Shown: one piece after another, positions 2,123 through 31,286 of the stretch
Position numbering within the stretch: the first letter of the stretch is position 1
Layout: each line of letters starts with the position of its first letter
Assembly: GCA_017550105.1 (NCBI GenBank)
Contig: JAFYLQ010000026.1
Span: 1 to 44,491 of the forward strand
Reading direction: 5' to 3'
Source of the DNA: Clostridia bacterium
Lineage (GTDB): Bacteria > Bacillota > Clostridia > Oscillospirales > Acutalibacteraceae
Length of the DNA stretch: 44,491 nt
Made by a program: the position numbers and the translations under genes
The notes under the pieces: model-generated
What the model was told of the DNA's origin: nothing
What the model saw: only the letters and a program-made list of their open reading frames with translations
The model's database searches: none

Positions 2123-3202
2123 ATGAAAAAAATAGCCCTTAAATTATGTGCTTGTGTTCTTATGCTTTCAATGCTTTCATCCTGCGGCGGCACCAAGGTA
2201 ACAAGAACAAAAGATATTACTGATAAAATCACTCAGACCTCTGTTATTGAAAAAACAGATATATACGAGCTTGAGAATTACGGAACCTTTTTCAATAATT
2301 TCAGCGAACGCTTTATTGTGCCGGGCTTATACGAGGGTATTATTCCACAGGGAATTTGCTTTGACGAAACAACCGGTTATATGCTTATAACAGGCTACTA
2401 CGAGGACGGTATTTACCCCTCAATGCTAATGTGTGTTGACCAAAAAACAGGTAATTTCATCAGTGCTCACCCCCTTTCAAACACCGAGGGCGAGGCGTAC
2501 TACGGTCACGCAGGTGGTATAGCATCTTCACAAAACACAGTGTATATAACAACGGACGGTGAATGTTATACTTTTTCCTCATCTGTTTTAAAGGAAACAA
2601 AAAACAATGAAGAAATCAGATTTACAGGCAAATTCAAAATCAACACCCTCGGCTCCTTTGCCTGTATAAGCAATAACGTTTTGTGGACGGGCGATTTTAT
2701 AGAAAGCGACGACAAGGAGCGTGAAAAGGTTACCAACGTTACCACCCTTAATAACGGCGAAACCTTCTATGCCTATTGTGAGGGCTACGTACTTGAAGAC
2801 GGCTTGCCCGCTATAAAAAACATAAATAGCGAAGGCAACGGGTACATTCCCGACTATTACCTTGCAATACCCGAACAGGTACAGGGAATGGCGTTTACAA
2901 AAACCGATAAAATCATTTTCAGCACAAGCTATGGCAGAAAAAACGATTCAAAAATTTATATTTTTGACGACGTTTTAATTTCCGAAAAGGTTGGCACCGT
3001 AAAGGTGGATGACAAAAACGTTGATTTGTTTGCCTGTGATAATGAATCGTTAATCAAAGAAATTACCGCTCCGCCTATGGCAGAAGGTCTTGCAATACAT
3101 TATGACGGCATTTATATGATATTTGAATCGGGTGCCGAAAAGTACAGAAATCACGGCGGCAAAAACCCACTTGAAAATGCATTTTTTACAACTATAGAAT
3201 AA
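2123..3202 (+). CDS. secreted lipoprotein, possible beta-propeller, function unknown
   Basis: 359 residues. A lipoprotein signal peptide is clear: a positively charged start, a hydrophobic stretch and the lipobox LSSC with the modified Cys at residue 21. The mature protein would be anchored on the outer face of the membrane. The body has short repeated beta-rich units (GYMLITGYYEDG, NTVYITTDGECY, DKIIFSTSYGR, DGIYMIFESGAEKY) about 50-70 residues apart, which suggests a propeller-like fold such as bacterial WD/NHL-type proteins. I do not recognise a named family or catalytic motif. The gene stands alone between a divergent radical SAM gene and the convergent addA, with a shared terminator at its end. 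Confidence 0.75.
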   Translation: MKKIALKLCACVLMLSMLSSCGGTKVTRTKDITDKITQTSVIEKTDIYELENYGTFFNNFSERFIVPGLYEGIIPQGICFDETTGYMLITGYYEDGIYPSMLMCVDQKTGNFISAHPLSNTEGEAYYGHAGGIASSQNTVYITTDGECYTFSSSVLKETKNNEEIRFTGKFKINTLGSFACISNNVLWTGDFIESDDKEREKVTNVTTLNNGETFYAYCEGYVLEDGLPAIKNINSEGNGYIPDYYLAIPEQVQGMAFTKTDKIIFSTSYGRKNDSKIYIFDDVLISEKVGTVKVDDKNVDLFACDNESLIKEITAPPMAEGLAIHYDGIYMIFESGAEKYRNHGGKNPLENAFFTTIE

Positions 3203-3206
3203 AATC

Positions 3207-3243
3207 AGTACCGAAGCTTCAAAAGAAACTTCGGTACTTTTTT
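3207..3243. terminator. bidirectional terminator between the lipoprotein gene and addA
   Basis: Stem AGTACCGAAG (3207-3216) with CTTCGGTACT (3229-3238), followed by a T run on the plus strand and preceded by AAAA that gives T residues on the minus strand. It lies between two convergent stop codons and overlaps the addA stop, so it can serve both genes. Confidence 0.85.
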
Positions 3244-6200
3244 ATATTTCTATAAATTTATTCAGTTTGAATGAGTAAACGTACTTCTCCTTTACCCTTA
3301 TACCCTCGCACTGTTCAAGTGCCTCGGTATAAATGCTAAGCTGGGGTGAATACATCTGCACAAAAGCATTTTCATCGGTAATATTATCCGTCTTATAGTC
3401 AATAAGCACGGCTTCACCATCTTCAATAAAAGCACAGTCAAGCTTACCCTGAATAACTATATCCTCATCTGCTATATCTGCCGATAAATTATTATACAAC
3501 TCCCCTGCTTTTTTCAGGAAAGCAAATTCATACTCCTTAAGCACCCTTGAGGAATTAAGCAAACGTTCACCCAAAGGATTATTAAAGAATTTAAAAATTG
3601 ACTGAGCATCAAGAACCTCGGCTTCCCTTTCATTAAGAATACCTGCAGTTTTCAGTCTTTCAATTTCTGCTTCGGGGTTTTCGTTAGCACAAGTAAAGTC
3701 ACAAAGTTCAAGGAATTTATGAATTGCCGTACCTCTTGAAGCGCCCGTAAATGCTTTATTTAGAAATGCAGGCTTTTCGGTTGCGAAATAACCTCTTTGA
3801 GTCTTGTTATTTTCTGTAGAGGAAGCGGCAACCTTTGCAAGAACACCCGAGTAATCATAGGGGTATTTATACTCTGTTTTTTCTTCAATAAGTTTTAATA
3901 ACTCATCATCAACGGCTACAACTCCGTTTTCGTTGGTTTTTTCATCCACTTCAACAAAAACGCCGTCTTCCGTAAAATCAACGTAGGTTGTATCCATCGA
4001 GAAGCTATCGCCATTAAAAGTAGCAGTCTCGTACTCTGCTTTTTCTCGTAAAATACCGCAATCCTTGTGCTTTGCGAAGGCACTTAAAAGCCATTCGCTC
4101 ATACTTGATGCACGATAAACCGCATAGGGGTGAAGTTTGCCGTTAGCATCAAAGGATAAGGTATTATTAAGTCTTATGCGCTTAGCAGTTGATTTGCCTG
4201 TAACTGTGCAAACAAAGGCAAGGTGTTCCTTAGCACGGGTCATGGCAACGTAAAGCACACGAAGTTCCTCAGATGCACTGCCGAAAAGAACTGATTTTTC
4301 GGTTGCTGCAGAAGAAACTGTATGATACTTTGTGAAGTTTTCGTCATCACGAATTTTAAGCCCAATACCCGTTTCCCTTGATAACAGCAAGGATTTATAG
4401 CTATCCTGCTTATTAAAGCCCTTTGAACAATCGGCAATAATAACGTACGGGAACTCAAGACCCTTGCTTTTGTGAATTGACATAAACTGAACTCCGTCAA
4501 CCCCGCCACTTGCTCCGTAGCTTCGCAACGAGCCGTTTGCGACTGCATTGTCATAGTAACGGACAAAGGCGTTAAGCCCGTTCCTGCCGCTATTTATAAA
4601 ATCCTCTGCAAACTTAACAAATCCGCGAATATTGGCTTTGCGGGATTCACCGTCGGTCATTGAAAGGAAGATATCATTTATGCCGGTATCCTCAACAAGA
4701 AACTTAATAAATTCATCCATAGGTAACGACGAAGCCGTATTCCTGTAAAGAGCAAGTTTTTTTAGAAAATTGCGGGTTTTAAGTGAAGTTTTTCCGTAAT
4801 CCTCTGCGCAGGTATAGAGTTCTGCTCTACGGTCGACCATTCTTATTTCCGCAATCTCGTCAGGAGTAAAGCCGAATATGGGTGAAAGCATAACTGCAAT
4901 AAGCGAAATATCATCAAGGGGGTTATTTACGCTTTTAATAAGCACACCAAGAAGTCTGATTTCCTTAGTGTCACTAATGTCGCCATCTAACACAGCAGAA
5001 GAGCTAATGCCTAATTTTTCTAAGGCTTCGGTGTAAACCTTAACTTTATTTTTGATGCTTCTTAAAAGCACACAAATATCCGAGGAGCGTATAGGTCTTA
5101 CACCCTGCTTTGTGGTAATTGAAACCTTTGAATCAAGAACCCTTTTAATGTATTCTGCTACTACTTTAGCTTCAGCCTCTGTGGCTTCTGCAGTTTTCAT
5201 AGAGCCTGCGTCAACATAAATCATCTCGGTATCGGGTGTTGATTTTTCGGGATAGTAGGTTGCACCAAAGGTGAGCTCCTCACGTTCGTTATAATCAATT
5301 TCACCGATTTCAGGACTCATAAGTGCTTTAAAAACAAAGTTTACTGCCTCGTCAATACCCTTTCGGCTTCTGAAGTTGCGGTCAAGTGTAATCTGTGAAG
5401 GCTTTTTTGAGCCATCGTAGTCGGAAAGATTACGTCTGAGGTTCATAAACAACTCGGGACTTGCAAGTCGAAAACGATAGATGCTTTGTTTTACGTCACC
5501 AACGCAGTAAAGATTAGTACAATCCCTTGACAAGGCTTCAAATATAATGTTCTGAGCCTCATTGGTATCCTGATACTCGTCTATGAGTATTTCCTTATAT
5601 TTAGAACGTAAAGCCTGTCCTATAGCTGTTAAATGCCAACTACCTGCATCATCATAGGCAATGAGCAGCTTAATGCATTTATGAAGAATATCGTCAAAGG
5701 AATAGGAATTAAGGTCTTTCTTAGTTGCAGAGAGAATAACACCAAGTCTGTTTACCGATTCGCAAAGTTTTTTAATTATGGGATATAATTTTCGGGCGTC
5801 CTCTTTATGCTCGTCAATTGTGGGAAGCGCCCTTTTTTCAAGAGCAGAAACCTCGTCCTCATACTCCTGAAAAACCTCCTGTGTTAACTTTTTAAGGCCT
5901 TCGTCAACCTTGGAGTTTCTTGCAGGAACCTTTACGACAAGACCCTCGCGTATAACACCGACTAAGCCATCCCAATCCCTTGAGGAAACAAGGTTATTTA
6001 AAATTTGCACTCTTTCTGCGGTAGCGTTAAAACGCCTTAAATATTCTGCACTAAAGCCGCTTGATTCCTCCATCAAAGCAACACATCGCATAAGTCGTTT
6101 ATAATGGAAATCACAGAACATCGACAAAAACTTATATATCGTTTCTGCCCAAACTGTATCATTGGGTGTTTTATCACAACTAAATGCTTCCGCCAGGTCA

Positions 6201-26331: not shown

Positions 26332-28923
26332 TTATTCCGTTTCAAATGAAATCAGTTTTATAAGCTCACCAATCTTCTGTGGTCTTGGCTTGTTAATTTT
26401 AAAAAGCAGGTCATCAATATTCTTTTCGACTGCGATAATTTCACGCTCAAATTCCTTGGCAGAAACGCGAACAACACCGAAGCGCACCGCAGAAAGCTGA
26501 ATAAGATTATCAGAGGTTACTACCCTTACGTTGTCATTTTTACCTATATCACTTATGAGCTTTTCGATATAATTATCCCCAAGCTCTCTTTCCTTTGTAA
26601 AAACAACCTTAATGTTATTATACGTGAATTTTTCACCTTTATTTGACGGCACCTTATAGGCATCAAAAACAAGGACAGTTTCATATTTTGTAAAAGCACT
26701 GTAATTGCACAATATATCCATAAGCCTGTCACGTGCCGCCTCAAGATTGGTTTTGGCAAGTGCTTTTAATTCATCCCATGCAAAGATAACGTTGTAGCCG
26801 TCAATTATTACATATTTTTTACGGGGTGTTACGTTATATTCGGATTGAACAGGCTTTTTGGGTGTTTTGTTGTGTGAATATCTGTAATACGGGTGCTTAT
26901 CGGGACCAAATTCACGCTCCATTATTGCTTCGAGCTCTTTATCGTCAATATGAAAATTACGTTTATTAAGGTTTACCTCGTATGGTGTTTTTTCCTGAGT
27001 AAGGCAGGAATCAATATGCATATATTCTTTAACCTTATCCCATTTTACGTTAAAGCCTGCACCGTGAGCGCAAAAAACTGAATCAGGGGTATTCTCCAAA
27101 TCACTTTCGGGTGAATAACGTGCATTGGCTATAACCTCGTCTGAGTTATGGCAAATATCATACCCGCAAACGTCACAGAAAAAACGTCCCCTTCCACCTG
27201 TGTATGAAGCAACCTCGGTGGCGTAACCGTTTAATGAAACCACGGGTGCTTTACCTGTAATAATAGTAAATCCATTTGACTCCTCGGGTGAATCAAAGGT
27301 ACCGTTTTTCATTCTTATGTCACTTATTGCCCTGCCGATTTGCTCGGTGGGTACCTCTAACCTGAAGCTATAATAAGGCTCTAAAAGGACGGATTTTGCC
27401 TGCATTAAGCCCTGCCTTACGGCACGGTAGGTGGACTGTCTGAAATCGCCGCCCTCTGTGTGCTTTAAATGGGCTCTGCCTGCAGCAAGAGTAATTTTGA
27501 TATCCGTTATAGGCGAACCTGTAAGTACACCTAAATGCTCTTTTTCGCTTAAATGAGCAAGTATTAAATTCTGCCAGTTTCTATCGAGAGAATCCTCGTT
27601 GCATTTACTTGTGAACACAAGACCGCTACCACGTGGCAAGGGTTCTAAAATCAAATGAACCTCTGCATAATGTCGCAAGGGCTCATAGTGACCCACACCC
27701 TCAACGGTATCTTCAATAGTTTCTTTATAAAGTACTCTGCCCGAGTCGATTTCAACGTCAACGTCAAAGCGTTCCGATATAATGCCCTTTAAAATTTCGG
27801 TCTGTATATCACCCATTAATGATACGTGTATTTCCTGCAAAAAGGAGTTCCACGAAACGTGAAGCTGAGGGTCCTCGGACTCTAACAAACGAAGCTTGGG
27901 CAAGAAGCTTTGCGCATCGCAATTATCGGGCAACACAACCCTGTAATTCATAACGGGCTCAAGGAAGCTCTCGGAAAAGGACTCCTCAGAGCCTAAACCG
28001 TCACCGCAATTAAGTGCAGAAAGCCCTGTTACAACACAGACACCACCTGCAGTCATTTCGTCAACACTTACGTACTTCTGCCCCGAATAAATACGTATGC
28101 CGTTAATTTTCTCATTTCTGCCATTATATGACAACGTTTCCTTTACCTTAAGTGAGCCACCCGTTATTTTAAGATGAGTAAGTCTTTCGCCCTTGGGGTC
28201 GTGAGTAATCTTGAAGGCTTTGGCAGAAAACTCGTCAGGATAGCTTTTCACCCTGATATATTTGTAAAGCCCCTGCATAAATTCATCAAGACCCTGCGAT
28301 TTAAGACCCGAGCCGAAATAACAAGGTACAACAAGACGTTTAGCAACCATTACAACAATATCGCTATCATTAACAACACCTGTATTAAAATACTGTTCTA
28401 ATACGTTTTCGTCACATACTGCGATATTTTCATAAAATTCATCAGTATCAGGATTTGTAAAATCGACTATACATTCACCGCATAATTCCTTTAAATCATT
28501 AATTATTTCCCTTTCAGGAAGTCGGGCAAAGTCCATTTTCGTAACGAAAACAAACGTAGGTATATTGTAGCTTTTTAAAAGCTTCCAAAGAGTTCTGGTG
28601 TGTGATTGAACACCATCGGTACCGCTGATAACAAGAATGGCGTAATCAAGAATTTTTAAAATTCTTTCGGTCTCTGATGAGAAATCAACGTGACCCGGTG
28701 TATCAAGAAGGGTTATTTGTAAATCATCAATTTCAAAAACTGACTGACCCGCAAAAATTGTGATACCTCTTTCCTTTTCGAGGGTATGAGTATCCATAGT
28801 CGTATCACCATTATCAACACGACCCAATTTTCGTATTTTACCTGCTTTATACAACAAAGCTTCGGCTAAGGTTGTTTTACCCGCATCAACGTGCGCGAGT
28901 ATTCCTACTACTGTTTTTTTCAT
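26332..28923 (-). CDS. Tet(M)/EF-G-like translational GTPase fused to a Rae1/YacP-type NYN ribonuclease
   Basis: 863 residues. Residues 1 to about 640 form an EF-G-type factor close to ribosomal protection proteins: G1 AHVDAGKTT (10-18), RGIT (52-55), DTPGH (74-78), TKMD (128-131), then the later EF-G-type domains. Residues about 701-863 are a NYN/PIN-like nuclease: VIIDGYNVIFAW (Asp about 708), VFDAYK (Asp about 754), GDN (about 783) and TSDN (about 805). This pattern matches YacP (Rae1), which in Bacillus subtilis cleaves mRNA in the ribosomal A site. A linker has several Cys (583, 586, 591, 618). ATG at 28923 follows AAAGGG. Automatic annotation as tetracycline resistance would be misleading. 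Ribosome-targeted mRNA cleavage is inferred. Confidence 0.88.
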   Translation of the reverse strand: MKKTVVGILAHVDAGKTTLAEALLYKAGKIRKLGRVDNGDTTMDTHTLEKERGITIFAGQSVFEIDDLQITLLDTPGHVDFSSETERILKILDYAILVISGTDGVQSHTRTLWKLLKSYNIPTFVFVTKMDFARLPEREIINDLKELCGECIVDFTNPDTDEFYENIAVCDENVLEQYFNTGVVNDSDIVVMVAKRLVVPCYFGSGLKSQGLDEFMQGLYKYIRVKSYPDEFSAKAFKITHDPKGERLTHLKITGGSLKVKETLSYNGRNEKINGIRIYSGQKYVSVDEMTAGGVCVVTGLSALNCGDGLGSEESFSESFLEPVMNYRVVLPDNCDAQSFLPKLRLLESEDPQLHVSWNSFLQEIHVSLMGDIQTEILKGIISERFDVDVEIDSGRVLYKETIEDTVEGVGHYEPLRHYAEVHLILEPLPRGSGLVFTSKCNEDSLDRNWQNLILAHLSEKEHLGVLTGSPITDIKITLAAGRAHLKHTEGGDFRQSTYRAVRQGLMQAKSVLLEPYYSFRLEVPTEQIGRAISDIRMKNGTFDSPEESNGFTIITGKAPVVSLNGYATEVASYTGGRGRFFCDVCGYDICHNSDEVIANARYSPESDLENTPDSVFCAHGAGFNVKWDKVKEYMHIDSCLTQEKTPYEVNLNKRNFHIDDKELEAIMEREFGPDKHPYYRYSHNKTPKKPVQSEYNVTPRKKYVIIDGYNVIFAWDELKALAKTNLEAARDRLMDILCNYSAFTKYETVLVFDAYKVPSNKGEKFTYNNIKVVFTKERELGDNYIEKLISDIGKNDNVRVVTSDNLIQLSAVRFGVVRVSAKEFEREIIAVEKNIDDLLFKINKPRPQKIGELIKLISFETE

Positions 28924-28936
28924 ATAACCCTTTTGC

Positions 28937-28968
28937 AAAAACCGACAGAACAGCCTTGCTCTGTCGGT
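28937..28968 (-). terminator. terminator or attenuator between clpE and the GTPase fusion
   Basis: ACCGACAGA (28941-28949) pairs with TCTGTCGGT (28960-28968); on the minus strand the hairpin is followed by TTTTTGC. The downstream gene starts only 14 bases later, so it must rely on readthrough or on a promoter I cannot see. Confidence 0.8.
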
Positions 28969-28976
28969 AATTAAAT

Positions 28977-31286
28977 TTATTTAAAAGTAACTTCTATTTC
29001 GCCGTCAACAGCCGTAACAGAAATCTCGTTAACGAGTGCACCTGCATTATCAATAAGAATATTTGCAACCTTATCTTCAACACATTTACGGATAGTACGT
29101 CTTATATCACGTGCACCTCTGCCACCGTCTTCACTCTTTTCGGCAATAATTTCACATACGCCGTCACCAACAACAAGCTCGATGCCCTTGTCCTTAAGGG
29201 GTTGACGGAATTCCTCAATAAGAATTGCCGCAATTTTTACAAGCTCTGCCTTACCCAAGGTATTGAAAACAACAATTTCATCAACACGGCCTAAAAACTC
29301 GGGTCTTAAGAATTCCTTAAGAGCCTTCATGGCTTTGTCCTTTGATGCGGTATTCTTATCACGATTGAAACCAAGAGCATTTTCAGTAATATGACTGCCT
29401 GCATTAGAAGTCATAATTATAACTGTGTTTTCAAAGCTTACTGTTCTGCCCTGCGCATCGTTAGTTTTGCCTTCATCAAGAATTTGAAGAAGGATATTCA
29501 TAACGTCGGGATGTGCCTTTTCAATTTCATCGAAAAGCACAACTGAATAAGGCTTTCTTCTTACCTTTTCGGTAAGCTGACCTGCCTCGTCATAGCCCAC
29601 GTATCCGGGAGGCGAACCGATGAGCCTTGAAACGCTATGCTTTTCCATAAACTCGGACATATCAAGCCTTATAAGAGTTTCGGGAGTTTCAAAAAGCTCG
29701 TTTGCAAGTTGTTTTACAAGTTCGGTTTTACCAACACCTGTAGGACCAACAAAAATGAATGATGCAGGCTTTCTCACGGCAGAAATCTGAACTCTGCTAC
29801 GTCTGATAGCAGCCGCAAGAACCTCAACTGCCTCGTCCTGCCCGATAATTCTTGCTTTAAGCTTATCGGCAAGGTTTGAAAGCTTACGCATATCATTTTC
29901 GATGATTTTAGACGTAGGTATACCCGTCCAAAGGTTAATAACCTTAGCAACGTCCTCCTCGGTAACATCGTTATCATCGGCTTTTACTTTAACGGCGGCA
30001 ATCTCCTTTTCAATTGCCATTTTATCCGCCTTGAGCATTGAAATTGCTTCGTAATCAGGACCGTTTTCATCGGTAACGTTAAGAAGCTCTTCCTCTTGCT
30101 CTGCAAGGTCCTCAAGCTTTTTAGTAAGCTTCTGATAGTCGCTTATAGCAACGTTTCTGAGGTTAGCGCAGGTGCATGCCTCATCAAGAAGGTCAATTGC
30201 CTTATCGGGCAAGAACCTGTCGTTAATATATCTTTCAGAAAGTAACACGGCTCTGTAAACAAGAGCGTCGGAAATCTTAACCTTATGGAAATCCTCGTAA
30301 TATTCCTTAATGCCTAAAAGCATTTTGTAACAGTCGGCAACTGAGGGCTCCTCAACCTTAACGGGTTGGAAACGTCTTTCGAGTGCCGCGTCCTTTTCAA
30401 TATGCTTACGGTATTCGTTAAAGGTAGTGGCACCAATTACCTGAATCTGCCCTCTTGAAAGAGCGGGTTTAAGGATATTAGCGGCGTTCATTGAGCCTTC
30501 GGCATCACCTGTACCAACAAGATTATGAACCTCGTCAATAAAGAGAATGATATTGCCCTCCGCCTTAACCTCGTCAACAAGACCCTTAATACGGCTTTCA
30601 AACTGACCACGGAACTGAGTACCCGCAACAAGAGAGGTAAGGTCAAGAAGATGTATTTCTTTATCGGCAATGCGAGCAGGAACGTCGCCCGAAGCAATCT
30701 TCAAGGCAAGACCCTCGGCAATTGCAGTTTTACCTACACCGGGCTCACCGATAAGGCAGGGGTTGTTCTTGGTTCTTCTGCAAAGGATTTGTGTTACACG
30801 ATAGATTTCGGTTTCTCTGCCGATTATACGGTCAATTTTACCCTCACGAGCCTTAGCAGTAAGGTCGGTACAATAAGAGCCAAGGAATTTACGCTTGGTT
30901 TTACGTTTTTTCTTCTTTTTCTTATCGTTTTTATTATCGGATTCTTCAGGCTCTTCGTCCTCTTCAACCTCGGCTTCAGCATTTTCACCCTGAGGAATGG
31001 CATTATTGCCACCGAAAAGATTTTGCATAAAGGGCATTGTACCTGCACCGCCCAACTGAAAATCATCCATATTCTCCATCATATCACCGAATTGTTCGCT
31101 GACTGCGTCAATATCCTCCTCGGTGATACCCATATTCTGCATCATCTGTTTTATGGGACCGATATTCATTTCTGAAGCACACTTAAGGCACAAGCCCTCC
31201 TGTGTGGTCTTTTCGCCCTCAACCTTGGAAATAAAAATAACTGCAGGGCGTTTTTTGCATTTACTGCATAACATTTTATTATTCAT
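28977..31286 (-). CDS. clpE: ClpE-like AAA+ unfoldase with N-terminal zinc finger
   Basis: 769 residues. The N terminus has a four-Cys zinc finger (C7, C10, C33, C36) like ClpE and McsA, instead of the Clp_N repeats of ClpC. A Met-rich segment follows, then an acidic stretch (102-117) and a Lys/Arg-rich stretch (122-133). Two AAA modules come next: GEPGVGKTA with IDEVHNLVG, and GPTGVGKTEL with FDEIEKAHPDV, separated by a coiled-coil middle domain. Such proteins feed substrates to ClpP. The charged linker is longer than in Bacillus ClpE. The ATG at 31286 follows GGGAG. pgsA ends 19 bases upstream. No CtsR or CIRCE site is evident. Confidence 0.85.
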   Translation of the reverse strand: MNNKMLCSKCKKRPAVIFISKVEGEKTTQEGLCLKCASEMNIGPIKQMMQNMGITEEDIDAVSEQFGDMMENMDDFQLGGAGTMPFMQNLFGGNNAIPQGENAEAEVEEDEEPEESDNKNDKKKKKKRKTKRKFLGSYCTDLTAKAREGKIDRIIGRETEIYRVTQILCRRTKNNPCLIGEPGVGKTAIAEGLALKIASGDVPARIADKEIHLLDLTSLVAGTQFRGQFESRIKGLVDEVKAEGNIILFIDEVHNLVGTGDAEGSMNAANILKPALSRGQIQVIGATTFNEYRKHIEKDAALERRFQPVKVEEPSVADCYKMLLGIKEYYEDFHKVKISDALVYRAVLLSERYINDRFLPDKAIDLLDEACTCANLRNVAISDYQKLTKKLEDLAEQEEELLNVTDENGPDYEAISMLKADKMAIEKEIAAVKVKADDNDVTEEDVAKVINLWTGIPTSKIIENDMRKLSNLADKLKARIIGQDEAVEVLAAAIRRSRVQISAVRKPASFIFVGPTGVGKTELVKQLANELFETPETLIRLDMSEFMEKHSVSRLIGSPPGYVGYDEAGQLTEKVRRKPYSVVLFDEIEKAHPDVMNILLQILDEGKTNDAQGRTVSFENTVIIMTSNAGSHITENALGFNRDKNTASKDKAMKALKEFLRPEFLGRVDEIVVFNTLGKAELVKIAAILIEEFRQPLKDKGIELVVGDGVCEIIAEKSEDGGRGARDIRRTIRKCVEDKVANILIDNAGALVNEISVTAVDGEIEVTFK

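Follow-up and report, generated by a model that had tools for sequence, protein, structure and literature searches.

The Bacillus subtilis nuclease Rae1 (YacP) has been described as cutting mRNA in the ribosomal A site (PMC12320835; PMC6613710). Tet-type factors, for their part, overlap the EF-G site on the ribosome and reach into the A site, and a role has been described for Pro509 in loop III of TetM (PMC8161019). The two kinds of protein have also been met in one chain: the same architecture as that studied here was reported in ten Clostridiales species, with the suggestion that the nuclease is an RNase-based addition to resistance, and the same report cites an older suggestion that YacP-like NYN domains act in RNA maturation (Atkinson 2015, PMC4342817). 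The parts of these papers that we drew on include, in the last case, no tie to A-site cutting by Rae1 or to loss of yacP. The architecture itself is not new; what is new is a census of 393 genomes, in which the fusion appears to have displaced the separate yacP gene. A search of the open-access literature, which was not complete, returned no other paper on the fusion.

The fusion gene lies in a 44,491-nt stretch of DNA (the window; contig JAFYLQ010000026.1 of the Clostridia bacterium assembly GCA_017550105.1) and is made up of the following parts.

26332..28923, minus strand: complete fusion gene from ATG to stop, 863 aa; the start is common to orthologues
28258..28923, minus strand: G domain, about residues 1-222 (approximate boundaries, from Pfam and alignment)
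27742..28257, minus strand: domains II and III, about residues 223-394 (EF-G_D2 and EFG_III, Pfam)
27391..27741, minus strand: domain IV, about residues 395-511, with tip loops GHYEPLRHYAEV and AHLKHTEGGDFR (Pfam and alignment)
27154..27390, minus strand: domain V, about residues 512-590 (EFG_C, Pfam)
26998..27153, minus strand: C-terminal extension, about residues 591-642, with conserved C591, C618 and WDKVKEYMH
26815..27015, minus strand: linker, residues 637-703 (67 aa), overlapping the end of the extension, with the motif DKELEAIMEREFG at residues 661-673
26335..26814, minus strand: Rae1/YacP NYN domain and tail, residues 704-863, with D708, D754, D783 and D805

The original prediction, made from the sequence without database searches, had claimed an uninterrupted frame, and inspection bore this out: the 863 codons counted from the ATG at 28923 follow one another without a break, and an in-frame TTG at 28938 would extend the protein to 868 aa. 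Within this single frame Pfam recognizes GTP_EFTU (4e-48), EF-G domains II, III and IV, the EF-G C-terminal domain and NYN_YacP (5.8e-44; 150.4 bits against a curated cut-off of 24.6). These matches and those to solved structures agree with the names given earlier to both modules, a Tet/EF-G-type GTPase and a Rae1/YacP-type NYN domain. The first of these has the marks of the EF-2 family, namely the G motifs with the switch-II His, followed by EF-G domains II-V. A full set of G motifs had been claimed, and all can be located (G1 AHVDAGKTT, G2 RGIT, G3 DTPGH, G4 TKMD, G5 SGLK; we assume these labels from general knowledge of GTPases), with the reservation that G4, usually NKMD, is a variant: TKMD occurs in the window and six relatives, and N occupies the position in 34 of 41 readable sequences. 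Lys16, Thr55 and DTPGH are invariant wherever readable, and most of EF-G's G4-G5 insertion is missing. The predicted nuclease motifs VIIDGYN, VFDAYK and TSDN were all found, with the four Asp residues inside the NYN part; homology to NYN domains begins near residue 704-705, slightly later than the residue of about 701 proposed before. Because the same fusion recurs in assemblies of other species at 42-91% identity (19 sequences), an assembly error is unlikely, and the joining of a translational GTPase to a Rae1-type nuclease in one protein is real. NCBI names an 862-aa member from Monoglobus (WP_320690501.1) a 'translation factor GTPase family protein'; the GTPase of this protein, which shares its architecture with the NYN-bearing Tet proteins of Atkinson (2015, PMC4342817), falls in the fused group described below. 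A cultured species, Kineothrix alysoides (L027), is among the carriers. Separately, fusion genes with broken frames occur in three genomes (loci L178 and L173 in G102 and G246, and G291:C121), reflecting either decay or assembly error.

The NYN part matches only two solved sequences, the B. subtilis YacP entries 5mq8 and 5mq9 (8e-23); the homology spans about 145 residues, and the Asp positions coincide. The B. subtilis protein, in contrast, forms 181-residue chains in its PDB copy and has no GTPase attached. Loss of the Asp residues across orthologues, which the original prediction had named as evidence against itself, was not seen, all four being invariant in 43/43 fusions and in the 20/20 stand-alone YacPs aligned. 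We take these four residues to be catalytic. Compared with five other members of its genus, the window's NYN part has a dN of 0.055-0.204 and a dS above 2 or saturated, a rough estimate given that dS is near saturation. A tree of 43 fused and 34 stand-alone NYN sequences, built on few columns, contains four changes between the two labels, and an arrangement of the fused NYN sequences in one clade was not rejected (p-AU 0.353); the tree speaks neither for nor against their single origin.

The linker is 62-127 residues long (median 77) in 41 of the 43 fusions, L023 and L037 being left out, and every measured linker thus has at least 62 residues. Its sequence is variable outside a helix-like motif, the one represented by DKELEAIMEREFG in the window. 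A pattern for this motif, written after inspection of the same linkers, fits 40/43 of them compared with 0.005% of shuffled ones.

The nearest solved relative of the GTPase part is TetM (3j9y, 1.7e-74), and TetM and TetO are its best solved matches. It shares with TetM, TetO and TetS the domain order, a loop III that has the same length and closes with DFR, and possibly a C-terminal helix-like motif, but differs in its separate tree group, in the absence of Pro509 and in its C-terminal extension, which is longer and has two conserved Cys. The extension's WDKVKEYMH resembles TetM's IDKVRYMF, although the aligner did not pair the two. Identity of the window's GTPase is 28-29% to the Tet(M) rows, 25% to its own genome's EF-G and 41-48% to unfused sister GTPases of Clostridia; these sisters (frames of 624-729 aa) have the same domain-IV tip, but their chain stops after the extension, without linker or NYN. 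In a tree of 76 proteins, 70 family members cluster (SH-aLRT 99) apart from TetM/S/O and EF-G; within them, one group (SH-aLRT 95) holds 46 fused GTPases together with a single protein that lacks NYN, from a Ligilactobacillus plasmid, and 23 unfused clostridial GTPases fall outside it. This tree was made by a quick method with SH-aLRT support only and a midpoint root, and the incomplete rows L023, L033 and L037 were left out. The plasmid protein (L205, Ligilactobacillus salivarius pR1, 2986-4920) has 644 aa and lies near rpsN; it was probably transferred and then stripped of its NYN domain.

Fused and unfused members have 111 positions in common, each conserved in no fewer than 93% of either set. 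Of these, 24 are absent from the compared TetM/S/O, OtrA, EF-G and EFGII sequences; domain IV holds 12 of the 24 and the C-terminal extension 8. The tip of domain IV carries a set of residues (H418, E421, H463, H488-T489, G491-G492, R500 and R503) that is nearly invariant in the 70 members and likewise absent from the compared proteins. Where TetM has Pro509, 65/70 members have Lys (Lys487 in the window) and 0/70 have Pro. Judging by these family-specific domain-IV positions and by the Lys at the Pro509 position, the factor should contact the decoding centre in another way than TetM does. Against the NCBIfam resistance equivalog NF012153 the fusion scores 439.2 bits and an unfused sister 457, compared with a cut-off of 775. 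The GTPase forms a distinct clade and, by score and by loop III, is not a tetracycline-resistance protein. We rejected the resistance gene as a candidate on the NCBIfam score, the low Tet(M) identity and the loop III without proline; the earlier view that this is not an acquired tetracycline-resistance gene agrees with the curated score and loop III.

To place the fusion among its relatives we compared 393 genomes of a single class, Clostridia, with a GTPase threshold of E 1e-60; the window's own genome excepted, completeness was 90% or more throughout. NYN_YacP was present in 250/393 and the GTPase in 163/393. The fusion occurs in 136 genomes, and for 38 of these the assignment relies on the length of the frame plus a lone NYN match. 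A further 113 have only a stand-alone YacP (21 of them with an unfused GTPase), 7 have an unfused GTPase but no YacP, 136 have neither, and one (G317, with a 19-residue fragment below the cut-off) was left unassigned. Of the fused genomes, 123 combine a GTPase frame at least 780 aa long with a NYN match, which in 85 of the 123 is listed with its frame (in G129 the frame leaves the contig inside NYN). The other 13 are the window's own (G000), four with long frames (G060, G177, G254, G392), four with short frames (G120, and G351, G241 and G212, in which contig ends cut the frame), three with broken frames (G246, G291, G102) and one split over two contigs (G228). Among the remaining classes, one stand-alone YacP lies in a 342-aa frame (G342) and one unfused GTPase is in two pieces (G259).

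An intact stand-alone YacP was found in 1/136 fused genomes and in 113/256 genomes without the fusion (G317 left out; Fisher p 8e-25, in a test that ignores relatedness). The sole fused genome with an intact separate copy is G340. Another, G426, has broken stand-alone fragments, and second matches in G176, G230 and G264 are incomplete and fall short of the cut-off. The original prediction had proposed a search for a stand-alone yacP in the window's genome, and a domain search found no second NYN_YacP there (assembly 84% complete).

The site from which yacP is missing can be examined directly. The gene lies less than 100 bp from rlmB in 12/13 stand-alone genomes inspected (3 kb away in G173), and a sigH-like gene follows it in 8/8 stand-alone regions fetched. 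The SigH identity was assigned from Pfam and NCBIfam names on sample members, two of which are above the cut-off and one (G387) below. In 8/11 fused genomes inspected, rlmB is followed on the same strand by the sigH-family gene and yacP is gone; in G355 a 51-aa frame on the opposite strand lies between them. The rlmB-sigH gap measures 552-717 nt in six stand-alone genomes, while in fused genomes it is 125-296 nt in six and 578-586 nt in two. In one of these two, G081, a decayed yacP is recognizable in the gap (tblastn 3.8e-9, 37% over 84 residues). Chance matches on the wrong strand reached 1.1e-4, and the best match in G247 was 0.008. In G340 yacP is still at its old site beside rlmB and the fusion is elsewhere. 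Other genes follow rlmB in three fused genomes (G191, G223 and the window's own). In the window's genome rlmB is on contig C4 next to a non-sigH gene and the fusion is on C30; clean excision of yacP is not visible in this lineage. Many of the rlmB regions have an RNase III-domain gene upstream of rlmB, presumably mrnC.

Because fused genomes almost never keep a stand-alone yacP, and because yacP is gone from the rlmB-sigH site in most of those inspected, the fusion probably does Rae1's job. Rae1-type chemistry of the NYN part is backed by the conserved residues and by gene replacement, and for the NYN part on its own we hold this role to be very probable. The most economical reading would be that the fusion took over Rae1's work and that the separate gene then decayed. 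On balance we lean, by a modest degree, towards regarding the fusion as the form that Rae1 takes in part of the class Clostridia, a nuclease linked by a tether to a translational GTPase of its own. Whether the GTPase would also deliver the nuclease to the A site in a GTPase-dependent manner seems to us evenly poised, and yacP displacement is also to be expected where a common polypeptide is all that links the two modules.

If delivery does depend on the GTPase, homology suggests how it might proceed. The GTPase in its GTP form would enter the paused ribosome where EF-G and TetM bind, with its distinctive domain-IV tip in the decoding centre; GTP hydrolysis would then pull domain IV back and leave the A site open. 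The linker-borne NYN domain would enter the vacated A site and cut the mRNA, at a site assumed from B. subtilis Rae1, and tmRNA would rescue the truncated complex. The window's genome encodes a tmRNA (175.8 bits). By analogy with what the cited sources describe of Tet-type factors and Rae1, the A site would be required by domain IV as well as by a Rae1-type nuclease, and the two could not act there together; sequential, tethered action follows from this, with the order of events a conjecture. This counts against the simple picture of the original prediction. A more specific proposal, which we advance tentatively and rate as somewhat doubtful, is a no-go-decay machine in one polypeptide, whose domain-IV tip would recognize a particular stalled A-site state and whose GTP hydrolysis would license the tethered nuclease to cut the mRNA. 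If true, such a fusion would replace the free Rae1 of other Firmicutes and parallel eukaryotic Hbs1-type surveillance, although the pair is not homologous.

The alternative that survives best is a fusion of convenience, in which the NYN domain is an ordinary Rae1, the GTPase has another task on the ribosome, and the shared chain raises local concentration without GTP gating. To judge from the 28/393 genomes that carry the GTPase unfused, 7 of them without any NYN match, the GTPase appears able to serve without the nuclease, and the domain-IV and extension signature shared by these unfused GTPases likewise suggests a role independent of it. Rae1 can in turn be independent of this GTPase, as 94 NYN-positive genomes have no GTPase match; 91 of these have a stand-alone frame of 160-226 aa, the size of the clostridial YacP relatives that sit beside rlmB and, unlike the fusion, have no GTPase attached. 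The variability of the linker outside its motif fits convenience as well, whereas the retention of that motif and of a minimum length does not. Neither does the fact that just 1 of 47 sampled members of the fused group, the Ligilactobacillus plasmid protein, is without NYN, nor the co-occurrence of unfused GTPase and stand-alone YacP (21/28 genomes, against 92/228 without the GTPase; Fisher p 0.0009, relatedness ignored). We consider this alternative unlikely, if still the strongest competitor of a tethered Rae1.

A second alternative makes the protein a factor for ribosome assembly or stable-RNA maturation, with a LepA- or BipA-like GTPase bringing an RNase to pre-rRNA or tRNA. In keeping with it, yacP normally adjoins rlmB, which encodes a 23S rRNA methylase, and several genomes have an RNase III-domain gene close by; the older suggestion cited by Atkinson (2015, PMC4342817) also fits. 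The description of B. subtilis Rae1 as an A-site mRNA cutter (PMC12320835; PMC6613710) speaks against it, and the gene was not found in 3 of the 11 genus mates with a completeness of 90% or more, a pattern that one would rarely expect of an enzyme required for maturation; we regard this explanation as improbable. More improbable still is a tetracycline-type ribosome-protection factor with the RNase as an added resistance mechanism, since this proposal (Atkinson 2015, PMC4342817), for which the TetM and TetO structural matches and the Tet family annotation of the close, unfused Ligilactobacillus plasmid relative speak, is contradicted by the resistance score, the Tet(M) identity and the proline-free loop III given above and by displacement of a separate nuclease gene.

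For the reading of the fusion as a GTPase-tethered Rae1, the natural GTPase fusion and the loss of the separate rae1 tie the nuclease to an A-site-type factor whose GTP switch can be mutated. A possible role of the fusion on stalled ribosomes thereby becomes directly testable. The results also suggest that some clostridial proteins with Tet-like names may be mRNA-surveillance enzymes and not resistance determinants.

Within its genus the fusion was seen in 12/21 mates of the window's genome, and in 8/11 of those at least 90% complete. In seven fusion-less mates whose region was fetched, another sequence follows the clpC-like gene. The fusion gene thus looks accessory. The original prediction, partly supported overall, holds for the fusion, both module names, the intact nuclease and the dismissal of Tet resistance; the gene, which it placed in a housekeeping run, is by this distribution not strictly housekeeping. 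Four neighbours were identified by Pfam as a Clp-type AAA+ ATPase, a PALP enzyme (cysteine synthase-like), a CDP-alcohol phosphatidyltransferase and a Colicin V production (CvpA-type) protein, and they offer no functional hint. We rejected an operon logic because no neighbour family recurs beside the fusion outside the genus beyond a few related loci, such as a 312-aa family at L028, L029 and L033. The Clp-type AAA+ protein (28977-31286, minus strand) scores below the cut-off of the seven NCBIfam models listed for it and has an N-terminal CxxC...CxxC segment, which we take to resemble the McsA zinc domain. One further element lies between its gene and the fusion.

28942..28967, minus strand: stem-loop CCGACAGA...TCTGTCGG followed by a T-run, ending 18 nt before the ATG

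The exact stem is present in 8/11 genus loci with readable upstream DNA, varies in L248 and is absent in L249 and L250; a search for the pattern in three genus mates without the fusion found none, and a terminator scan did not list it. Seven of the 8 exact-stem loci are beside a clpC-like gene, and on this ground, together with its absence from two fusion loci, we rejected the stem-loop as a regulator of the fusion. As a guess, it perhaps terminates the upstream genes.

Two further candidates were rejected. For a defence system there was no PADLOC match at 1e-3, and as to a phage gene, none of the matches listed for 69 viral-contig loci extends beyond query residue 647, so none shows NYN. Two of the viral loci (L263 and L264), at IMG/VR contig ends, are relatives of the GTPase part at about 48% identity and are possibly bacterial flanks of prophages.
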